Below, one piece after another: positions 1 to 10,865 of a stretch of DNA of 10,966 nucleotides. A program made the translations under genes and the position numbers. The notes under the pieces are model-generated. The model made no database searches, was not told where the DNA came from, and saw only the letters and a list, made by a program, of their open reading frames with translations. Numbering within the stretch: position 1 is the stretch's first letter; each line of letters starts with the position of its first letter. Source of the DNA: Mageeibacillus sp. UBA5770 (GTDB lineage Bacteria; Bacillota_A; Clostridia; Saccharofermentanales; Saccharofermentanaceae); the NCBI GenBank assembly GCA_002418705.1, contig DIEQ01000061.1, forward strand, positions 9,869 through 20,834, in the 5' to 3' direction.

Positions 1-363
1 AATTAACTGATCAAATTTATCGCTCTTTTCACAATACCCTTGAATATCAAGGGCTTTAATAGTCTCAAGAGGCGGTGCCATATCTTTATGCCCGGTAAGC
101 AGGAGAATATACAGATCAGAATTAAATTCACGAATCTGAGCTACCACCTTATCTCCGTTGATTGGTGACATGAGAAAGTCAAGAATAAGCAGGTCGTATT
201 TACCGTTGCGTATCATCTCAATAGCATCCGTCGGCGATGTAACACCGGTGAATTCATAGCCATTGCGCCGCAGCACAACAGAGAGAGAGTCGATAATACC
301 GACCTCGTCATCTAGGACTATGATTTCATAAGGTGATTGAGATTCCGTTTTTTTCCTTCTCAT
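1..363 (-). CDS. Response regulator receiver domain (partial, runs off left edge)
   Basis: N-terminal 121 residues of a two-component response regulator; the C-terminus lies beyond the window. A CheY-like receiver fold is visible: the acidic pair D18-D19 (IIVLDDE) for Mg2+, the predicted phospho-acceptor D62 in LILDFLM, the switch Thr T90 in LLLTGH and the conserved Lys K113 in YCEKSD. The start is the ATG at 363, with a GTGGGGAT-like ribosome binding site about 8 nt upstream. It begins 21 bp after the stop of the histidine kinase gene, so the two are almost certainly co-transcribed and form a cognate pair. Whether an output domain (DNA-binding, HD-GYP or other) follows cannot be seen, so its link to transcription of the upstream NRPS genes is inference. 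Confidence 0.93.
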   Translation of the reverse strand, partial: MRRKKTESQSPYEIIVLDDEVGIIDSLSVVLRRNGYEFTGVTSPTDAIEMIRNGKYDLLILDFLMSPINGDKVVAQIREFNSDLYILLLTGHKDMAPPLETIKALDIQGYCEKSDKFDQLI

Positions 364-384
364 GGTGCTTATCCCCACTGCACA

Positions 385-2202
385 TCAAATAACTGGAATT
401 GATATTGAGAAAGTCGTCCCCTTGCCAACTGTTGAGTCAAACCACATTCTGCCGCCGAATTTACCGATGATTGTTGAGTACGACATGTACAATCCCAATC
501 CCGTACCCTTTTTTGCCTTTGTTGTAAGCATCTCTTTAAAGAGCTTTTCCTTGACATGGTCCGGCATTCCGCACCCATAATCCTGAACAGCAATCAAAAG
601 CGAAGCCCCCTCCTGTGATATGGAAAGGTCAATTACACCCTCATTCCCCTCATACGCTTCAATGCTGTTAGCAATCAAATTATTGATGATTTGAACAAGA
701 CTGTTTACTTCACCTCTTATCATAGTCGATTTTTCAAGCCCGCATATAACATTTAGTTTACAAGCATATTTTTTTAGTTCGTGATTCATCAAAATATCGA
801 TTCTTTTCAGCAATTCATTTAATTCAAAATTATCTGTCGTTGAAGAAGTAAGCTGAACCGCCTGTCCTTTGACCGTCGAGATAATATCTGACATATACTC
901 ACAATAGCTGCGCATTTTTTTTGTCCAGACACGCATTTCACTTGCAATCTCATGATGGTCTTCCTTTCCGACCTTCGGATCGTCAATCGAGTCATCATAT
1001 TCATCAATCAAATCATTGACGCCTTCGATACCTCCGGAAATTGACATGATCGGAGTTTTTAGATTGTGGGCAATGCCCCCTACCAGCTGGCCGAGTGTAA
1101 TGAGATGTTCCTTCTCAATCAGCTGCGCCTGTGTTTCGCGGACAAGTTCAAAGGACCGCCTTAACTCCGTGATGTCCTTGAGCAAAATTATCGTTCCCTT
1201 ATATCTGTCCTGCGTTATTACCGGGGTAATCTCGATGGCAAAAATTTTATCAAATCCATCTTTAGAAAAATGTTCTTCGAAATGTGTTGTTCTCCGTTCA
1301 TTTATTGTCTGCTCAAGCTTTTGTTCAAATTGTGCAAGTCCGTCAACAGAAATTTCTTTGAGCGGTTTACTCCACTCCCAGACACTCATTTTTCGTTTTA
1401 TGGGAGTGACGGCTGCAAAGGTCTTGATTAACGTCTGGTTGAAGTCGATAATTTCTACACTGTCATTAATTACAATATAGCTGTCTGATATATGGTCTAC
1501 AATTGTCTGCAGCGCAATTGGTGCAATTCCGAGAAAATCATACTTCAATATGGCAAACATTACACATACAACAGCAAAAGTGAAAGAGATGGGTTCATAG
1601 TACATAGAAAAAGAGAAAAGCCGGAATACGAATGCAACATCAACAGAAAGAGGCACGATTGCACCGATCGTGAACAGCAGGGATTGTTTTGAAAAAAAGC
1701 CTGCATTCTTTATCGAAAAATACAACAAAAACCAGAGACCAAGGATAATAAGGGGATATGCCAAAGCAGCCTGTATATTGATAAGGGGTCCCCGGATAAT
1801 TTCGTTGTTCATGAGTGAATATTTTTCAAGAAAGAGATGATGATAATCATTTGTCCAAATGACAATAATATTCGCAATCGGAAAAAGAACAAGGAAATAG
1901 TGCCGTCGCTTCAGGTTTGAGCCTGTAGAAAATGAGCGTCCCAATAAAAAAGTAAATACAGATATAAAACCCACTGCGGAAAAGTAAATGTTTGCAAAGA
2001 CCATCCCTGAATATGCGAAATAATAGATGGCATATGCCTCAACCAGCATACTCGCGCACCAGATAAAAACGCTGGTTATCAGCCCGAGAGACAGATAATG
2101 CAGCTCCTGCTTTTTTCTCATTCTTAATACAAACAGCAAAAGAATAAACACCGATACAGTCGATATATGAAGCAGTACAGTCGCTAAATCATTTAAATGC
2201 AA
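385..2202 (-). CDS. Membrane sensor histidine kinase (N-terminal 7TM, PAS, HisKA, HATPase)
   Basis: 605-residue sensor kinase, the presumed partner of the response regulator 21 bp downstream. Residues about 8-220 contain about seven hydrophobic segments (roughly 8-27, 36-57, 65-88, 102-117, 143-163, 173-195, 203-219), matching the 7TM sensor module of Gram-positive histidine kinases. A PAS-like domain follows (about 228-345), then the dimerisation/phosphoacceptor helix with predicted phospho-His H379 in GGIAHNLKTP, and a C-terminal ATPase domain with N-box NNLIAN (507-512), G1 DYGCG (541-545) and G2 GTGLGL (566-571). The residue after the phospho-His is Asn, where Glu or Asp is usual. The start is TTG, chosen because a strong GGGAGGTG site lies upstream and the next in-frame Met is residue 28, which would delete TM1. 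It starts 35 bp after the NRPS stop with no terminator between. The sensed ligand is unknown; the NRPS product is a speculation from position. Confidence 0.95.
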   Translation of the reverse strand: MHLNDLATVLLHISTVSVFILLLFVLRMRKKQELHYLSLGLITSVFIWCASMLVEAYAIYYFAYSGMVFANIYFSAVGFISVFTFLLGRSFSTGSNLKRRHYFLVLFPIANIIVIWTNDYHHLFLEKYSLMNNEIIRGPLINIQAALAYPLIILGLWFLLYFSIKNAGFFSKQSLLFTIGAIVPLSVDVAFVFRLFSFSMYYEPISFTFAVVCVMFAILKYDFLGIAPIALQTIVDHISDSYIVINDSVEIIDFNQTLIKTFAAVTPIKRKMSVWEWSKPLKEISVDGLAQFEQKLEQTINERRTTHFEEHFSKDGFDKIFAIEITPVITQDRYKGTIILLKDITELRRSFELVRETQAQLIEKEHLITLGQLVGGIAHNLKTPIMSISGGIEGVNDLIDEYDDSIDDPKVGKEDHHEIASEMRVWTKKMRSYCEYMSDIISTVKGQAVQLTSSTTDNFELNELLKRIDILMNHELKKYACKLNVICGLEKSTMIRGEVNSLVQIINNLIANSIEAYEGNEGVIDLSISQEGASLLIAVQDYGCGMPDHVKEKLFKEMLTTKAKKGTGLGLYMSYSTIIGKFGGRMWFDSTVGKGTTFSISIPVI

Positions 2203-2237: not shown

Positions 2238-5200
2238 TTAACCGGATCCGGATCCTTCTGCAATCTGTGCTTTAATTATCTCAGCAAGTTCTTCGGAATG
2301 TGAATTGATAAAGTAATGCTCGGCTTCAGGAATTACATGAAGGTAGACATCATCAGAATATGCAAGCCAGCCCCTGTGGCTCTTTTCATAATTTCTGGTA
2401 ACTTTGTCTTTCGATCCGACAATACAGTGAATGGGTGTGTTCAGCTTGAGATGCTTATTGGAAGCAAGTCTGTGAAGGTATTGATAAAAGGACTTCGTAT
2501 CATGTCTGAATGCTTTTATGATAAAGCCCATGTTAACGGAATCAAATGAAGCATACGGCAATCCGATACTGCTGAGATACTTAATAATTTTGTCATCCGG
2601 ATAGAATCTCCAGGGATCGAATACGCCTCCGTAAACACCTGCATATTTAGGCGGAACGATACCGCCAACGAATATGGCCTTAATTGGTATGCCTTCATTT
2701 TCAACAAGCCTTGCGGTTTCAATCAGAGCGGCGCTTCCGACACAATGCCCATATAGAACGATCTCCTGCGGATTCATCTTCTTAATTTCCGCAAGAACAA
2801 GCTCAGACACGTCTTCAACGGACAGATAGGTCTCATCACCGTCCATGTCATGGCCGGGAAGGTTTACAGCAAGCAGATCATATTCAGGCAGATGCTTCGC
2901 TGCCGACTCTGATAAGTTACGATACGAAATAACATTGCCGCCCCCGTATGGGAAACAAATCATGGGTGTTTTACCTTTTTGTGATTTAGGCGAAAGCCTG
3001 AAAAGGATTGAAGCCGCGTCATCTATGTTTTCGTGGTCGATTCTTTGAGCCAGCTGTCGAATCGTCGGATGATTGTACAAATCCACGAGGGTCATATCCT
3101 TATACCCGCAAGGGATTCTCGAGATTACTTTAATGGCACTGAGTGAATCTCCGCCAACAGAAAAGAAATCATCATCTATACCTATCTTCTCGAGACCAAG
3201 AACATCCGACCACAGATCCGCAAGCATAATTTCCGTTGAAGTCTGCGGCGGCATATAGATACTCGCAGGTTTAATAGCTTCGTCACTGCCCGGTAAGGCA
3301 GCCCTGTCGATTTTCCCGTTTCGATTAAGCGGCATCTTATCAATCTGAATAAAGAAAGACGGAATCATATACTGAGGCAGATTTTTCTTCAGGAAAGTTT
3401 TAAGATCATCATACGACAGCTCCTCTTCACCGACAAAATATGCGAACAGCTGACTTTCCCCGCTCGTCTTTTTTGCGATGGCAAGAACTTCCTTAATGAA
3501 TGGATGCTTCAACAGCTCGGACTCTATTTCGCCAAGCTCCACCCGGTATCCGCGAATCTTAATCTGATTATCGATTCTGCCTAAGTATTCCAGATCCCCG
3601 TCGGCTGTCACCCTTGCAAGGTCACCGGAATGATACAGCCTGTCTGAACCGGAGAAAGGATCCGGACAGAATTTCAGGGCTGTCAGTTCAGGATTATTCA
3701 AGTATCCCCTTGCGACGCCTGCTCCGCTTACACACAGCTCACCCGGTACTCCGACGGGCAGGAGATTCATGCTCCTGTCAACGACATAAGCCTTAAGTGT
3801 CGGTATGGCTTTGCCAATATTACTTATGTTTTGCTCGATTTCCTTTTCCCGGATTTCCTTAAATGTGACATGAACAGTCGTTTCAGTAATACCATACATA
3901 TTAATCAGCCTGGTGGCCGGATATCTTTCTCTGAACGGCTTGAGCATACTTGGTTTTAATGCATCTCCTCCAAAAATGACATACCGCAGCTCCAGATTTC
4001 GTACGTCCGAAGATTTTTCCTCGATAATCAGGTTGTTAAATGCCGCAGGTGTCTGGTTGAGGACTGTCACCTTTTCGTTTTCAAGGATGGAAAGGAATGC
4101 TCTCGTGTCTTTCGCATCCTGTTTTTTGACAATAACCAGCTTGCCTCCATACAGCAGAGCCCCATACATTTCCCACACAGAAAAATCAAAACAAAATGAA
4201 TGGAACAGCGTCCATACATCCTGCTGAGAGAATTGGAATTGAAATTTGCTGTTAAACAGCAGTCTGACCACGTTCCCATGCTCGATCATTACGCCTTTCG
4301 GCTTTCCTGTCGAACCGGAGGTATAAATAATATATGCCAGGTTATGCGAATTATGATTTTGAATGAGATTGGATGCTTCCGGGACCGAATGGCCGGTATC
4401 GTCAAGGCACAGGCATTCGAGGTACGGAGAGAATCTGGTCTCATGCACCTTTTGTGTAAGCATGACCAGTGCCTTGCTGTCCTCAATCATGTACGAAATA
4501 CGATCATCCGGAAAATCCGGGTCTATCGGCAGATAGGCAGCTCCCGCTTTCAGAATGGCTAGAATCCCGACTATCATTTCAAACGAAGGCGCTGCTGAAA
4601 TGGCAACAATGTCATCCGGGTGAATTCCCTTGTCCCGCAGGATTCCTGCCAGCATATTCGACTTACAGTTAAGCTCACCGTAGGTCATTTCCCGGTCCTC
4701 AAAAACAAGCGCGATGTTATCCGGATTCCTGCCGGCCTGCTCCTCAAAGATCCGATTTAAAGTCATCTGTTCCGGATAATCTGCCAGGGTATCATTAAAT
4801 TCGTAAATCAGCTGATGTCTTTCTTTTTCAGACAGCATATTAATTTCTGATATTTTTATCTGCCTGTTCGCTGTAATCTCATGGATTATATTCGAAAAGT
4901 GCGACAGAAGCCTGTCAATCGCAGCCCCGGTAAACAGGTCTGTGCTGTATTCGGCATTGATCCGGATCGTTTTATCTTTTTCACAGGCTTCCAACGATAT
5001 ATCAAATTTAGATGTCCGTATATTGAGTTCATCAGGCGAGAAAACAAGGTTCTCCGCGCTGATGCCATGAACATCCATATTTTGAAAAACAAAGGCCGTA
5101 TCAAAGATTGGATTTCTGCCTAAATCCCTTGTCTTGCATATTTTTTCTACCAGAAGTTCAATCGGATAATCCTGATTCTCGTAAGACTCGAGCAGATTTG

Positions 5201-8200
5201 CCTTAACATTATGAAGAAACACAGAAAACGGTAAGTCTTTCCGGGGGAAGTTCCTGATTGCTAAAGTATTTACGAACATTCCAATAATATTACTGACATC
5301 AGAATGCTGCCTTCCTGCAATGGGGGTCCCGACAATAATATCCTCCTGACCGGAATACCTTGATAAAATAATATTATAGGCTGCAAAAAGTATCATAAAA
5401 ACAGTTGACTGCGTTTTGGACGCCAGTTTGTTTAGCGCTGCCGTTGTATCTTCATCCAATATGATTGAAGTTTTATCACCTCTGAAGCTTTTCCTGGGCG
5501 GTCTTGAAAAGTCAGTGGGCATATTCAGAACAGGCAATTCATCTGCAAACTTATTAAGCCAGAACTGTTCCTGCCTGTGCAGTTTTCCGGAATCAGACAT
5601 CTGGTTCTGCCAGACAGAATAATCCTTGTACTGCGTTTTTAATTTCGGTATTATTTTACCTGCATAAAGTTCCGAAAATTCCCGGAGCAGTATGTTGATT
5701 GATTCACCGTCGGAAATAATGTGGTGCATGTCAAACAGGAGAACATGCTGATTATCACCGAGTTTGATAAGCATGATTCTCAATATCGGTGCAGTATGGA
5801 GATCAAACGGGCGTATAAAGGATTTAATGATCCCTTCGATATCGTCCTCGCGTGATTCCTTAAATGCTATTTCAAAATCCACATGTTCATGAACGATTTG
5901 TACGGGTTCACCATCCACTAAATCAAAGGATGTCCGAAGTGACTCATGTCTCTCAATGATTGTCTTAATAGACCGGTCAAGCAATTCCCGGTCAAGTTTT
6001 CCTTCAATCCGCAGAATACCCGGCAAGTTGTAGTTTATCCCCTCCCCTTCTATCTGCCGCAGGATATAAAGCCGTTTTTGCGCTGAGGAAGCAGGGTAGT
6101 AATCTCTTTTTTCTATGAGGGGAATCGGCGAATAAGCTTTGTTGGCTGCGTCATCAATTTTAGCGCTCATTTTTAAAATCGTCCTGTTTGCAAAGATATC
6201 CCTGATTGTCAGTTCCACATTGAATTTTTTCTGAATTTCGCAGGATAGAGCGATGGCACGAAGCGAATCGCCTCCGATATCAAAGAAATCTTCTGTAATG
6301 CTGACATGCTCTATCTCCAGCATCCCCGACCATATTTGTGTCAGCGCTTTCTCAGTATCAGAGACAGGGGCAATATAGGCTGCTTCGGCTATATCAGTGA
6401 ATGCAGGCGCAGGAAGAGCTTTTCGATCAACTTTGCCATTTGATGATAAGGGAAGGTTCAAGAGGCATATAAAAAATGTCGGAATCATATATTCCGGAAG
6501 ATCCCGGGACAGATGCTTCTTCAATTCTGAGGACTTCACCTCTTTTTCAGCAGCATAATATGCACATAGATATGTCGAACTATTATGTGTCCTGCCGACA
6601 ACTACTGCACTTTTTACATGTGAATGTGAAAGAAGTTTGCTTTCAATTTCGCCCAGTTCGATTCGAAATCCGCGGATTTTCACCTGGAAATCGAGTCTGC
6701 CTAAATACTCAATATCACCATGCGGGAACCAGCGGGCACTGTCTCCTGTCTTATACAGGATTTCTCCCGGATTGTATGGGTCGCTGACGAATTTTTCAGC
6801 TGTAAGTACAGGATTATTGATATATCCTCTGGCGACCCCTACTCCTCCGATATAAAGTTCACCGGGTATTCCGATCGGGAGAAGAGTCTTGTTGCGGTCA
6901 AGAATATAGAGTCTGATATTATCAATTGGCTTTCCGATCGGTACAGTTTTCAGCGAGACTTTCGGAGAGCAGTTAAAGTAAGATACATCAACAGCAGCTT
7001 CCGTCGGTCCGTATAAATTATAAAGTTGTGTTCCGTTTTCTGCATATAAAGTCCGATTAAACAGGTCGACCTGATTTGTTGTCAGCGCTTCTCCGCTCGC
7101 GAAAACCTGAGCCAGCGATGAAAGCTTTGCACTGCATGCATTTCTGGTGACATAGTCCAAAAAGGCACCGAGCATGGATGGCACGAAATGCATTGTTGTT
7201 ATGAAGTCACGCGCAATCGCCTTGATGATTATTCCGGGATCCTTTTCACCGCCCGGTTCAAGCATAGATACCTTTGCGCCGACAAAAGTCCACCAAAACA
7301 GTTCCCATAGGGATACATCAAAAGTAAATGGTGTTTTCTGCAAAATAGTGCTCTCACCGATTATCGGGTATTTTTTTTGCATCCAGTTTATTCTGTTGAC
7401 GATACTGCGGTGCTCAATCATAACCCCCTTGGGCTTACCGGTTGATCCGGAAGTATAGATGATATAGGCAAGGCTGTCGGGACCGCTGATAAGACTTAAG
7501 TCAGACGGATCGCCGGTATAGATGGCTTCATCATCAATACTCAGCACATCTGCATCTAAGGCAAAACGTCCGGACAATTCGCGCTGGGTGAGAAGTACTT
7601 CAGAGCTGCTGTCCTTCATCATATATTGAATTCGGTCCAGCGGATAATCCGGGTCCATCGGAAGATAGGCGCCGCCGGCCTTGAGAATAGCCATGAGTCC
7701 GATAATCATCTCAAAGGATCTGAAAACAGAAATTCCGACGACTGTGTCTGACTTTACGCCTTTTTCCCGAAGAATCCGGGCAAGCTGGTTGGAGCGTTCA
7801 TTCACTTCGCGGTATGTCATCTGCTGATCCCCGTATATCACGGCGGCATTGTCAGGCGTCTTTTTCGCCTGGGCGTATAAAAATTCATGCAGCGTCTTAT
7901 CCTCCGGGAATTCCGCTGCTGTGTTGTTGAACTCGTAGAGGATCTGATGCTTTTCTTTTTCAGAAAGCATTTCAAGGCGTGAAATAGCCCTTTCCGGATT
8001 ATCGAGCGCATGCCAGAGCAAGCTGATGACGTGCTGGTGCAGGTATTCAATTTCTTTGGCATTGTATATTTCCGCCAGGAAATCATAGTCAAATATGTAT
8101 TTGCCGTTGTCATCCCTGTCATTGATATGGATGACAAGCGACTCGACCTGATGACCGGAAAAATGCCATCTTGTCGCAAAATCTTCCTGCGATTTTTTGG

Positions 8201-9314
8201 TGACCAGCTTGGTGTTCTGATAATTAAGAACGATATCAAAAAGGCGTCCGGGCAGCTTGTGCTTCTTTTTCAAGTCCCGGATCAGATAGTTATACGGATA
8301 TTTCTGATGCTTGAGTATGGATACGGTTTCTTTGAGCATTTCATTTGAAAACTGCAAAAAATTCTGTGTGTCACTCATTTGGATCCGTATCGGCGCTGCG
8401 ACGCTGACAAACATCCCGATCGTGTCCTTTTCGCGGGAGTTGACCCGGTTAAGTGTTGTCGTTCCGAGAATGATATCTTCTGTACCTGTCACACGGTGTA
8501 TATATATCGACAGTGCGGAAAGGAACAGGGTGAATACAGATACATTGTTCCCCGTACAGTATTCGCGTATTTTATCAGATAATTTCTGAGGTGTGATGAA
8601 CGTCTTGCGGCCGGAGTTTGTTGTTGTGCTGTTCAGCGCCTGTGGCTTCAGGATTGTCGGCTCAGGAAAAACATCAAACTTGGCATTCCAATATTCCCTG
8701 TCGCGAATGAATCGTTCCGATTCTTCATATTTCTTTTCGCTGGCGAGGTGTTCAAAGAAGGATGGTTTACTCACATCTTCAATCGGCAGTTCATTTTTCA
8801 TCGCCGAATAATACCCCATCACTGCATTTGCGGTCACACTGATTGACCAGGCATCAGCAATCATATGGTGCATCTTGCTGTACACACCGCCGTTTTCGTC
8901 GTCCAATTTGAATATGGCAAAATAGCAGAGGTCCGAGTCATAGAGATCAAAAGGAATTTTGGTCTGCTCGGCATCCCATCGATAGAGGTCATCAACACCA
9001 TTACCACGGCTGAAGTCTATAAAATCAAGTTTTTTCTCTGTATATGGAGACAGGTACTGGCTCGCGTCCCCGTCTTTTTCACGGACGTGAATACGTAAAC
9101 CGTCATTATTCCTGATCGTTAAGTTGATAGCCCTTTCAAGTGCGGCATAGTCGATCTGACCCTTTAATCGAAGGGTTCCCGCGATAACATTCATACATGT
9201 ATCCGGATATTTTTGTTCGAGATACCAGATGGATTTCTGCGGTTGTGAAAGCGCAAAATACTCTGTTGAGATTTCCATATTCACTCTTTTCTGCTCGCGG
9301 TAAATTGATTCCAT
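2238..9314 (-). CDS. Dimodular NRPS, C-A(Ser)-T-C-A(Thr)-T-TE
   Basis: 2358-residue cytoplasmic peptide synthetase predicted to build X-Ser-Thr and release it. C1 about 16-455 (HHMIADA, H149-H150); A1 about 465-965 (Y620 TSGSTGKPKG); carrier T1 with pantetheinylated Ser S1017 (GGDSL); C2 about 1072-1500 (HHIISDG, H1197-H1198); A2 about 1508-2005 (Y1664 TSGSTGKPKG); T2 with S2057; TE about 2116-2350. A1 code residues D666 V667 W670 H709 F738 S740 L767 V775 D776 K961 read serine; A2 residues D1710 F1711 W1714 N1753 I1780 G1782 M1806 V1814 H1815 K2001 read threonine. No epimerase or loading module. The TE triad appears to be C2191-D2303-H2333, with Cys as nucleophile. Order and length resemble DhbF (bacillibactin; about 2380 residues). 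The ATG at 9314 has GGGTGA 6 nt upstream; M13 is an alternative start. The frame is intact. Residues and order are seen; substrates follow from known codes; the product is inferred. Confidence 0.97.
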   Translation of the reverse strand: MESIYREQKRVNMEISTEYFALSQPQKSIWYLEQKYPDTCMNVIAGTLRLKGQIDYAALERAINLTIRNNDGLRIHVREKDGDASQYLSPYTEKKLDFIDFSRGNGVDDLYRWDAEQTKIPFDLYDSDLCYFAIFKLDDENGGVYSKMHHMIADAWSISVTANAVMGYYSAMKNELPIEDVSKPSFFEHLASEKKYEESERFIRDREYWNAKFDVFPEPTILKPQALNSTTTNSGRKTFITPQKLSDKIREYCTGNNVSVFTLFLSALSIYIHRVTGTEDIILGTTTLNRVNSREKDTIGMFVSVAAPIRIQMSDTQNFLQFSNEMLKETVSILKHQKYPYNYLIRDLKKKHKLPGRLFDIVLNYQNTKLVTKKSQEDFATRWHFSGHQVESLVIHINDRDDNGKYIFDYDFLAEIYNAKEIEYLHQHVISLLWHALDNPERAISRLEMLSEKEKHQILYEFNNTAAEFPEDKTLHEFLYAQAKKTPDNAAVIYGDQQMTYREVNERSNQLARILREKGVKSDTVVGISVFRSFEMIIGLMAILKAGGAYLPMDPDYPLDRIQYMMKDSSSEVLLTQRELSGRFALDADVLSIDDEAIYTGDPSDLSLISGPDSLAYIIYTSGSTGKPKGVMIEHRSIVNRINWMQKKYPIIGESTILQKTPFTFDVSLWELFWWTFVGAKVSMLEPGGEKDPGIIIKAIARDFITTMHFVPSMLGAFLDYVTRNACSAKLSSLAQVFASGEALTTNQVDLFNRTLYAENGTQLYNLYGPTEAAVDVSYFNCSPKVSLKTVPIGKPIDNIRLYILDRNKTLLPIGIPGELYIGGVGVARGYINNPVLTAEKFVSDPYNPGEILYKTGDSARWFPHGDIEYLGRLDFQVKIRGFRIELGEIESKLLSHSHVKSAVVVGRTHNSSTYLCAYYAAEKEVKSSELKKHLSRDLPEYMIPTFFICLLNLPLSSNGKVDRKALPAPAFTDIAEAAYIAPVSDTEKALTQIWSGMLEIEHVSITEDFFDIGGDSLRAIALSCEIQKKFNVELTIRDIFANRTILKMSAKIDDAANKAYSPIPLIEKRDYYPASSAQKRLYILRQIEGEGINYNLPGILRIEGKLDRELLDRSIKTIIERHESLRTSFDLVDGEPVQIVHEHVDFEIAFKESREDDIEGIIKSFIRPFDLHTAPILRIMLIKLGDNQHVLLFDMHHIISDGESINILLREFSELYAGKIIPKLKTQYKDYSVWQNQMSDSGKLHRQEQFWLNKFADELPVLNMPTDFSRPPRKSFRGDKTSIILDEDTTAALNKLASKTQSTVFMILFAAYNIILSRYSGQEDIIVGTPIAGRQHSDVSNIIGMFVNTLAIRNFPRKDLPFSVFLHNVKANLLESYENQDYPIELLVEKICKTRDLGRNPIFDTAFVFQNMDVHGISAENLVFSPDELNIRTSKFDISLEACEKDKTIRINAEYSTDLFTGAAIDRLLSHFSNIIHEITANRQIKISEINMLSEKERHQLIYEFNDTLADYPEQMTLNRIFEEQAGRNPDNIALVFEDREMTYGELNCKSNMLAGILRDKGIHPDDIVAISAAPSFEMIVGILAILKAGAAYLPIDPDFPDDRISYMIEDSKALVMLTQKVHETRFSPYLECLCLDDTGHSVPEASNLIQNHNSHNLAYIIYTSGSTGKPKGVMIEHGNVVRLLFNSKFQFQFSQQDVWTLFHSFCFDFSVWEMYGALLYGGKLVIVKKQDAKDTRAFLSILENEKVTVLNQTPAAFNNLIIEEKSSDVRNLELRYVIFGGDALKPSMLKPFRERYPATRLINMYGITETTVHVTFKEIREKEIEQNISNIGKAIPTLKAYVVDRSMNLLPVGVPGELCVSGAGVARGYLNNPELTALKFCPDPFSGSDRLYHSGDLARVTADGDLEYLGRIDNQIKIRGYRVELGEIESELLKHPFIKEVLAIAKKTSGESQLFAYFVGEEELSYDDLKTFLKKNLPQYMIPSFFIQIDKMPLNRNGKIDRAALPGSDEAIKPASIYMPPQTSTEIMLADLWSDVLGLEKIGIDDDFFSVGGDSLSAIKVISRIPCGYKDMTLVDLYNHPTIRQLAQRIDHENIDDAASILFRLSPKSQKGKTPMICFPYGGGNVISYRNLSESAAKHLPEYDLLAVNLPGHDMDGDETYLSVEDVSELVLAEIKKMNPQEIVLYGHCVGSAALIETARLVENEGIPIKAIFVGGIVPPKYAGVYGGVFDPWRFYPDDKIIKYLSSIGLPYASFDSVNMGFIIKAFRHDTKSFYQYLHRLASNKHLKLNTPIHCIVGSKDKVTRNYEKSHRGWLAYSDDVYLHVIPEAEHYFINSHSEELAEIIKAQIAEGSGSG

Positions 9315-9502: not shown

Positions 9503-10162
9503 TTAAAAAATCTCGTTATTTATCATGCAAAGAAAATCCATTTCATTCATTTGTGTGTAACCGGCATACTCATTTATTTTTTCAGAGCATACGGACAGTG
9601 TATATTGCTGAATGTATGAAGTGGCAATCATGGATCTGACAGGATCTATGAGTACATCGATCTTGCCTGTATCGGAAGGCCAGCCTTCGCCCCTCCACTT
9701 AAGATATGATTCCTTTCCTGTCCATACTTCGTTGAAGCGGCGGTCCGTACTGCCCCCTTTCTCATATATATATACTATTTCATTGTCGGTAAATACTCTT
9801 TGAGCAACAGCCATATCAGCCGGATTATCTTTCTCAATGTCAACACCGACAGGCAGGTCGCAAATCCCGACGGCAATGGCATTCCTGGTATGTGATATGT
9901 TGAAATGCAAATTCGGATGATCCGGGAAATATGGCTTTCCGAAAGGATTGTACCGGATCAGCAGATCACGGCCCGAAACGGAGAGCAGCTCACCCGCCTT
10001 ATATCGAAGCAGCACTTCCGGATACACGCGAAGTTTTTTGTCGGTCTCAAAACGCATCCGGCTGACCTGGATCTGCTTCTCAGGGGAAATCCGGGGCAGA
10101 AGACACCTGAGTATCTCCGGATCCGGCTTATCGCTTATTTCCATCATGAATAACTGCATCAT
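9503..10162 (-). CDS. Sfp-type 4'-phosphopantetheinyl transferase
   Basis: 219-residue enzyme that transfers the phosphopantetheine arm of coenzyme A to the conserved Ser of carrier domains, the expected activator of S1017 and S2057 in the NRPS next door. Sfp-family signatures are in order: NPFGKPYF (72-79), FNISHT (87-92), VGVDIEK (105-111) with Mg2+ ligands D108 and E110, and WTGKESYLK (147-155) with E151 and K150/K155. Length fits the family (about 220-240). The start at 10162 is ATG; a GAGGGG sequence about 15 nt upstream is rather distant, and its first bases overlap the stop codon of the preceding gene, suggesting translational coupling. Met6 or Met7 are possible alternative starts. It lies 19 bp after the pentapeptide-repeat gene and 188 bp before the NRPS. 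The enzyme family is secure; the exact target carriers are inferred from linkage. Confidence 0.95.
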   Translation of the reverse strand: MMQLFMMEISDKPDPEILRCLLPRISPEKQIQVSRMRFETDKKLRVYPEVLLRYKAGELLSVSGRDLLIRYNPFGKPYFPDHPNLHFNISHTRNAIAVGICDLPVGVDIEKDNPADMAVAQRVFTDNEIVYIYEKGGSTDRRFNEVWTGKESYLKWRGEGWPSDTGKIDVLIDPVRSMIATSYIQQYTLSVCSEKINEYAGYTQMNEMDFLCMINNEIF

Positions 10163-10181: not shown

Positions 10182-10865
10182 TCAGTATTTTATGACAACA
10201 CCCATCAGCCTGCACAGTTCCGCTGCCTGTGCGGGTGCCACAATGGCCCCTGTAAGATCTTCGATCCGAACACCGATTCCGCTGATATCACAAGTACTCA
10301 GGTCGATTCCAGCCAGCGCCGTCCCCGACATTTGTGTCTGCGTCATATTGCAGTCGCTGAAAAACACCTTTGCAAGCTTCACCTGCTGAAAATCAGTATT
10401 TTCCATGCGGCACGAGCGAAAGGCAGTCCGGTCCATATCCGAACTTCGGAAAAAAGAATAACGCATGATACAATTCTCAAAAACAACGTTTCTGAAAGTT
10501 GCTTCACGCATATCGATTCCGGTAAGATTACAGTCCTTAAACACGGTTCGATGAATAAGGGCATGTCCGAAATCCACGTTCATGATGCTGCAGTTTTGAA
10601 AGCACACATCCGTAACATCAAGTCCGTGAAGGGCTGTCTGCTGGAAAGTGCAGCCCTCTAATACAAACCGGGCAACGGAGACGTTATCTGCACGTATGTC
10701 TTCAAAAAGGATGCCTTGTGCCCTGCCTGCGCACAATACATCATCATCTTCAATTTCATGGTCTGAAAGATCCATGGCATCAAGGTCCCGGGGTATTCCT
10801 GGTGCGAGAATATCGGTTTCAACTGTATTTTTCACGTCCTGCAGGTTCATTTTGGGACGAGCCAT
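10182..10865 (-). CDS. Pentapeptide-repeat protein (right-handed quadrilateral beta-helix)
   Basis: 227-residue protein with no signal peptide or membrane segment, so probably cytoplasmic. From about residue 53 to 196 it runs in five-residue units with Leu, Phe or Met at the centre (CNLTG, ATFRN, TAFRS, CRMEN, TDFQQ), about 28 units or seven coils of a pentapeptide-repeat helix. Cysteines recur at exactly 20-residue steps: C72, C92, C112, C132, C152, C172 and C192. Flanks are a polar N-terminus (about 1-50) and a C-terminal cap with AQAAELCRLMGVVIKY. The ATG at 10865 has AAGGGGTG 6 nt upstream. It is followed after 19 bp by the PPTase gene, so both are likely in one operon. Some members of this fold (McbG, AlbG, Qnr) protect DNA gyrase from inhibitors, which makes self-protection possible, but many have no known role and the sequence does not decide. 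Confidence 0.93.
   Translation of the reverse strand: MARPKMNLQDVKNTVETDILAPGIPRDLDAMDLSDHEIEDDDVLCAGRAQGILFEDIRADNVSVARFVLEGCTFQQTALHGLDVTDVCFQNCSIMNVDFGHALIHRTVFKDCNLTGIDMREATFRNVVFENCIMRYSFFRSSDMDRTAFRSCRMENTDFQQVKLAKVFFSDCNMTQTQMSGTALAGIDLSTCDISGIGVRIEDLTGAIVAPAQAAELCRLMGVVIKY

Follow-up and report, generated by a model that had tools for sequence, protein, structure and literature searches.

A cysteine thioesterase and an adjoining sensor kinase in a clostridial peptide synthetase operon: possible release and sensing of a beta-lactone

What does a non-ribosomal peptide synthetase (NRPS) release when its terminal thioesterase (TE) carries cysteine in place of the usual serine, and what has the product to do with a sensor kinase encoded directly behind it? 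Both questions are raised by a 10,966-nucleotide stretch of Mageeibacillus sp. UBA5770 (contig DIEQ01000061.1, positions 9,869 to 20,834; hereafter the window), which is made up of five minus-strand genes, all co-directional. An earlier, sequence-only reading had singled out the TE; the sensor kinase beside the NRPS lay outside the coordinates it covered and is perhaps the more interesting part. We narrowly favor the interpretation that the NRPS makes an N-acyl-Ser-Thr-beta-lactone and that this product, or a derivative of it, is sensed by the adjoining kinase. The NRPS comprises two modules of condensation (C), adenylation (A) and carrier (T) domains followed by the TE:

2238..9314, minus strand: NRPS gene, C-A-T-C-A-T-TE, 2358 amino acids (open reading frame call, translation, domain scan)
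7935..9269, minus strand: C1 domain, HHxxxDA motif, likely of the acyl-accepting starter type (domain scan, motif)
6420..7907, minus strand: A1 domain, code DVWHFSLVDK, Ser-like (domain scan, code extraction)
6162..6347, minus strand: T1 carrier domain (domain scan)
4809..6107, minus strand: C2 domain, HHxxxDG motif (domain scan, motif)
3291..4748, minus strand: A2 domain, code DFWNIGMVHK, Thr (domain scan, code extraction)
3045..3236, minus strand: T2 carrier domain, approximate limits set by eye (two PF00550 stretches)
2265..2966, minus strand: TE domain, ObiF-type (domain scan, sequence and structure matches, tree)
2742..2744, minus strand: C2191, nucleophile, codon TGT, with H2190 just before it at 2745-2747 (translation, alignment)
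2661..2663, minus strand: G2218, at the position of Asp in EntF-type TEs, equivalent to ObiF1 G1173 (alignment and model)
2406..2408, minus strand: D2303, catalytic Asp, position II, after strand 7 (alignment and model)
2316..2318, minus strand: H2333, catalytic His (alignment and model)

The thioesterase active site

The sequence-only reading had proposed a Cys nucleophile within an otherwise intact triad, and the residues are as it described: residue 2191 is Cys in LYGHCVGSAA, residues 2303 and 2333 are Asp and His, and the FPYGGG motif is present. PF00975 matched residues 2117-2350 (E 7e-15, above the model cut-off), and the alignment placed no other Ser at the elbow. In the structural model, C2191 comes after strand 5, D2303 after strand 7 and H2333 after strand 8, which are the places of the triad in ObiF1 and SulM; a single-sequence structure model with a predicted local distance difference test (pLDDT) score of 47.8 was set aside.

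Cys alone is insufficient for assignment to the ObiF type, because BulbE and AB3403 combine Cys with the ordinary Asp position, as described in the available parts of PMC11536411 and PMC11298585. In the window TE, the elbow YGHCVGS matches the GXCXG nucleophile motif of ObiF-type TEs, D2303 stands past strand 7, and the small residue G2218 stands past strand 6, at position I, where EntF-type TEs have Asp (PMC6668435, available part). The Ser nucleophile and position I Asp of EntF/DhbF-type TEs are thus both absent. Alignment and model support an intact, ObiF-type Cys-Asp-His triad.

A protein search seeded with residues 2090-2358, which is less biased than the genome pattern scan described below, returned 48 homologues. 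Of these, 47 have Cys aligned at the elbow (46/47 once P0002, identical to the window protein, is removed), and the aligned Asp and His are both retained in 48/48. Sequencing error and decay, the latter already doubted from the sequence, can be ruled out as sources of a Cys kept so widely. The replacement of Ser is real, but within this clade Cys is the rule and no oddity of this protein. The lone exception, P0043, has Ser at the elbow (GHSAGS) and the terminal code DFWTFGLIF, and its sister P0044 has Cys; the pair is a possible natural test of the need for Cys.

Scanning genomes with the patterns CFPYGGG and LYGHCVG yielded 80 Cys-TE loci (loci carry L numbers), of which 80/80 having Cys is no measure of frequency because LYGHCVG itself contains it. 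We built a TE tree of 97 rows by quick search without bootstraps, requesting that the nucleophile column be left out. One branch (Shimodaira-Hasegawa-like approximate likelihood ratio test 99) separates 70 Cys rows plus P0043, with ObiF1 and SulM inside, from 25 Ser rows plus one Cys row, in a tree whose rows come partly from the Cys-containing pattern and in which SulM sits on a long branch. Three nucleophile changes explain this tree. Two Cys elbows fall outside the ObiF-type clade: the single Cys row L096 (genome G008), with Asp at position I, and L180, which reads GWCIGG and has no BLAST match to the window TE. A large sister group of Cys-TE proteins (L015-L078), mostly from Actinomycetota, Chloroflexota and Paenibacillaceae, has Ser-, Asp-, Asn- or Glu-like terminal codes. 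Its proteins are of about 1800 residues, the four scanned (L016, L019, L030, L050) are C-A-T-TE-MFS fusions, and glycosyltransferases are present in some of its clusters.

ObiF1 (PDB 6n8e) is the best match of the window TE both by sequence and by structure. The suggestion that ObiF is the nearest parallel is therefore well founded in Asp position, Gly, structure, tree and terminal Thr code, and the window TE joins an already known TE class as a new, distant member; beta-lactone release itself would follow by analogy. The second-best structural match, in the same tree clade, is the sulfazecin TE SulM (PDB 8w2c), which shares Cys, Asp at position II and overall structure. Formation of a beta-lactam as in SulM nevertheless appears highly improbable and was rejected: the published criteria, as given in the available part of PMC11298585, are contradicted by the motif (HCV at the window elbow versus QCN) and by the terminal code (Thr versus diaminopropionate), and no sulfotransferase was seen among the five window proteins scanned.

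Predicted substrates and the start of the chain

The A2 code DFWNIGMVHK predicts Thr, so that the last residue is predicted to carry a beta-nucleophile; the available part of PMC12283262 names this code for Thr/Dhb-activating domains and also ties it to modified Thr. The A1 code differs by one residue from the Ser codes DVWHLSLVDK and DVWHMSLVDK given there. Across the 48 homologues the terminal code indicates Thr in 33, Ser in nine and other residues in six (P0043, P0044 and P0046-P0049, the last four also carrying MFS domains).

The C1 and C2 motifs, HHxxxDA and HHxxxDG, were read on the identical P0002; at C1, P0013 has DG and P0041 no match. The structures of RzmA and CDA, whose C domains we take to be starter types, are among the better C1 matches, outside the top two. 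The C1 type is kept in single-module relatives (L007, L008, L009, L011, L012, L022, L172). Starter-related C domains of fatty amide synthesis have Ser (42%) or Ala (36%) at the place following HHxxxD, according to the available part of PMC13142362. The chain likely begins with an N-acyl group.

Kinase and regulator as conserved neighbors

The kinase gene begins 35 bases past the NRPS gene and is followed by a response regulator:

385..2202, minus strand: seven-transmembrane (7TM) histidine kinase, HisKA_7TM and HATPase_c (domain scan; conserved neighbor)
1..378, minus strand: response regulator, truncated at the window edge so that only its receiver part is included (domain scan)

When the window kinase and receiver were searched by tblastn against the 80 Cys-TE loci, L001-L011, L013, L022 and L058 had both of them downstream; in L012 the contig ends within a weak kinase match. 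The same search found neither gene in three Bacillota loci (L014, L026, L079) or in the non-clostridial loci, save a weak receiver match in L038. In one of the three, Clostridium sp. CF012 (L079), the NRPS frame is broken. When 17 Bacillota loci were compared with one another, NRPS, kinase and regulator were the only genes recurring in most; next came a 534-residue protein of L008 and the 4'-phosphopantetheinyl transferase (PPTase, three loci). The gene for the former, seemingly recurrent in six loci, was rejected as a conserved neighbor: the matches were a weak 7TM-like stretch (19-25% identity) common to kinases and part of one other protein. The protein itself (L008:1111-2712, upstream of the NRPS) resembles the kinases in its 7TM front part and contains GGEEF, a diguanylate cyclase signature and thus a further possible link to cyclic di-GMP (c-di-GMP). 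The two whole regulators scanned are REC-DUF3369-HD proteins, and 15/16 regulators carry the HD-GYP signature HHExxDGxGYP, the exception being that of L013, with N for D.

A kinase-seeded search matched 60/391 Clostridia genomes at 1e-20. Within the narrower order, the kinase occurs in 5/394 genomes at 1e-100 and the TE in 2/394, both adjoining the kinase. Neighborhoods were taken for the best matches only, giving 24 places with the 7TM part (L003, L143, L165-L181, L184-L188). Directly upstream lies an NRPS in 17, a PilZ-like protein in three, a contig edge in two and no synthetase in two (L181, L187), and these upstream genes indicate that the kinase is common to NRPS operons with several endings. 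As in a quorum-sensing pair, synthase and sensor are adjacent and conserved together, the kinase lying downstream in 16 ObiF-type-TE loci (the window, L001-L009, L011, L013, L022, L058, L172, L184).

A region of about 550 residues, its first part PilZ-like, is fused N-terminally to the NRPS in L005, L006, L180 and P0020, and stands alone before the same kinase in L177-L179; PF07238 is over cut-off in L180 and under it in P0020 and L178.

Release domain, terminal residue and sensor lineage

The 37 kinases collected in all stand behind an ObiF-type TE (16), a reductase (8), a C-A-T protein without a recognized end (4: L168-L170, L173), another TE (1: L180), a PilZ-like protein (3), a contig edge (3) or no synthetase (2). 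The reductase was identified by PF07993 in L165 and L171 and by similarity in L166, L174, L175, L176, L185 and L186. In L168:9653-13981, L169:2159-6472 and L173:4883-9211, about 400 C-terminal residues matched no known release domain (by Pfam for L168 and L173, by BLAST only for L169), with at most a weak NAD-binding match in L168; perhaps they are an unrecognized release domain.

All 16/16 ObiF-type kinase-linked loci have a terminal code for Thr (14) or Ser (2), as against 0/13 of the others (Fisher 1.5e-8, a value with few independent events behind it because the loci are related). The natural reading is that the beta-hydroxyl takes part in release.

On a kinase tree of 37 rows, the kinases of dimodular-TE, single-module-TE, PilZ-fused-TE and PilZ-only loci each form a group at 100/100, with L001, which is cut by its contig, classed as dimodular by its C2-type domain. 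The contig-edge L010 falls within the single-module-TE group, and reductase-type kinases appear in three places. Among 30 kinases, pairs with core identity of 50-65% share 40-49% 7TM identity within a synthetase class versus 33-37% between classes; the 45-50% bin is reversed, at 25.5% within (10 pairs) versus 30.7% between (54 pairs). This pattern fits receptors tuned to their products and is also what plain co-inheritance would give.

These data bear on a possibility to be taken seriously, if one we would not bet on: that the kinase pair merely regulates the operon or answers some other cue, while the peptide is directed outward, perhaps to inhibit an enzyme. Such an arrangement is compatible with beta-lactone release and touches only the signaling half of our interpretation. 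Some relatives with this type of operon have a reductase at the end and resemble gut clostridial dipeptide-aldehyde NRPSs. The gut clostridial dipeptide aldehydes are known as protease inhibitors, and the reductase-ended loci are presumed to make aldehydes of this kind. One such aldehyde is ruminopeptin of Ruminococcus bromii, as stated in the available part of PMC12327764. The kinase relatives without a synthetase beside them (L181, L187), and ObiF-type TEs without a kinase, point the same way. On the other side, no immunity gene recurs among the 17 loci, in most of which NRPS, kinase and regulator alone do, kinase clades largely track synthetase class, and the 7TM parts are more alike within classes at 50-65% core identity.

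Proposed mechanism and its weighing

From codes and motifs, C1 would place an acyl group on the Ser of module 1 and C2 would join acyl-Ser to the Thr of module 2. By the chemistry of ObiF1, acyl-Ser-Thr would then pass from T2 to C2191 by thioester exchange, with H2333 and D2303 helping, a closed ObiF-like pocket would exclude water, and attack of the Thr beta-hydroxyl on the thioester would form a four-membered ring and set free N-acyl-Ser-Thr-beta-lactone. Genomic context suggests that the ligand of the 7TM histidine kinase is probably the lactone or a derivative; the kinase would phosphorylate the HD-GYP regulator and so promote c-di-GMP breakdown.

Several observations weigh against this interpretation. 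Beta-lactones hydrolyze readily, which is odd for a diffusible signal. R1190 of ObiF1, which helps acyl transfer, lacks a clear counterpart, the lid aligning with gaps and no Arg in register. P0044 retains Cys despite its terminal code DFWNFGLIF. The 16:0 split amounts to about three origins on the kinase tree (three TE state changes without contig-edge rows, four with). Clostridial ObiF-type Cys-TEs occur without the kinase in L014, L026 and L079 and in two further loci with an Asp-like code, L182 and L183, and among the 17 loci the operons have no recurrent neighbor for acyl supply or export. Finally, of the 76 scan loci in which the terminal code could be read, 30 are not Thr/Ser (46 Thr/Ser, 16 Asp-like, nine Asn-like, three Glu-like, one other in L038 and one garbled in L012, labels for the acidic and amide types being given by resemblance to published or otherwise known codes; L010, L068, L079 and L080 were unreadable). 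These codes lie mostly in the sister group of about 1800-residue proteins. In four Asp-like clusters (L016, L025, L182, L183) the genes between the synthetases are glycosyltransferases, with no hydroxylases, so the ObiF-type class does not always act on beta-hydroxy residues. A hydroxylase there would have lent plausibility to beta-hydroxy-Asp; as it is, these TEs may catalyze a different reaction, unless their Asp is altered by an enzyme encoded elsewhere. Our claim about the beta-hydroxyl is confined to the kinase-linked clostridial group.

The Asp-type relatives, needing some other release if no hydroxylase serves them, lend some weight to simple hydrolysis of the chain by the Cys-TE. The linear N-acyl-Ser-Thr acid could itself be the signal, a role for which N-acyl amino acids would be more stable; the window TE fold is also close to type II editing thioesterases. 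We consider hydrolysis unlikely, given that Cys is so nearly invariant among the homologues and that the TE tracks terminal Thr/Ser in the kinase-linked operons. Moreover, the C1146S change in ObiF1 shifts the reaction toward hydrolysis, and Cys has been rationalized as favoring ring closure (PMC6668435 and PMC11536411, available parts).

The TE might instead form a different ring, either a seven-membered one through attack of the Ser hydroxyl at the Thr carbonyl or a macrolactone by oligomerization, to which a terminal Thr or Ser is suited as well. DhbF, which oligomerizes in this way to make bacillibactin, shares the C-A-T-C-A-T-TE order and the terminal Thr of the window NRPS. We think either outcome improbable, and more so than hydrolysis: position I holds Gly and not the EntF-type Asp, structures with the ordinary Asp layout match the window TE less well, and the single-module Thr relatives lack the Ser module that such cyclization would need. 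Siderophore gene families did not recur next to the operons, catechol genes not having been searched by name.

A wider generalization is tentative, and we hold it at well under even confidence: a three-gene clostridial signaling family might pair an NRPS-made electrophile with a matched 7TM kinase and a c-di-GMP-lowering HD-GYP regulator, the electrophile being set by the release domain (beta-lactone by ObiF-type Cys-TE, aldehyde by reductase) and the receptor lineage following. It is similarly doubtful, if conceivable, that the products of the family are electrophilic N-acyl amino acids or dipeptides, and, with no greater assurance, the PilZ-like domain on some synthetases could allow c-di-GMP feedback on signal synthesis.

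Remaining genes of the window

Two genes lie upstream of the NRPS:

9503..10162, minus strand: PPTase (domain scan)
10182..10865, minus strand: pentapeptide-repeat protein, upstream of the PPTase (domain scan)

The PPTase likely arms the T domains of the NRPS and is also found upstream in L002, L003 and L013. The pentapeptide-repeat protein scored under cut-off in each of the 18 NCBIfam models listed and has no relative among the 80 Cys-TE loci. An Rfam scan of the window gave no match, and a plasmid search returned 127 records, each below 60% identity.

Significance and comparison with known systems

Searches of open-licence literature with few terms, and hence weak as negatives, found neither a link between such kinases and NRPS operons nor a clostridial or Thr beta-lactone NRPS; the same searches gave no case in which such a TE is combined with Thr/Ser, an acyl start and a sensor pair alongside. 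With a beta-lactone product, strained-ring thioesterases, of which few are known, would be found in anaerobic Clostridia too, with ordinary Thr/Ser as the ring-forming residue, and the homologues would be a natural set for asking why Cys, Asp position and terminal residue co-occur. If the kinase senses the product, a reactive small molecule would have its synthase and receptor adjoining and tied to c-di-GMP; the reactive peptide may then be a signal both made and sensed by the cell. The system could be tested in species available in culture, Sporobacter termitidis (L003) among them.

The ObiF1 TE resembles that of the window in its Cys nucleophile, Asp past strand 7, Gly at position I and terminal beta-hydroxy amino acid. 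The two are only 27% identical, and the window enzyme would use Thr in place of the nitro-homophenylalanine derivative of ObiF1; the window NRPS is also dimodular with a Ser module, has no MbtH part that we found, and is followed by a sensor kinase pair. The reductase-ended clostridial NRPSs share the domain order up to T2 and the HHxxxDA C1 (three dimodular examples examined), as well as a related 7TM kinase downstream (8 loci), but have an NAD_binding_4 reductase and other terminal codes in place of the ObiF-type TE and Thr/Ser. Vfm quorum sensing of Dickeya, the nearest precedent that we have seen, likewise keeps a non-ribosomally made signal and a two-component system in one cluster. According to the available part of PMC9306890, Vfm involves 26 genes and stand-alone adenylation proteins, compared with three core genes here, and its kinase, for which no ligand domain is predicted, shows no covariation with the genes of the synthetase, whereas in the clostridial operons the kinase tree follows the synthetase.
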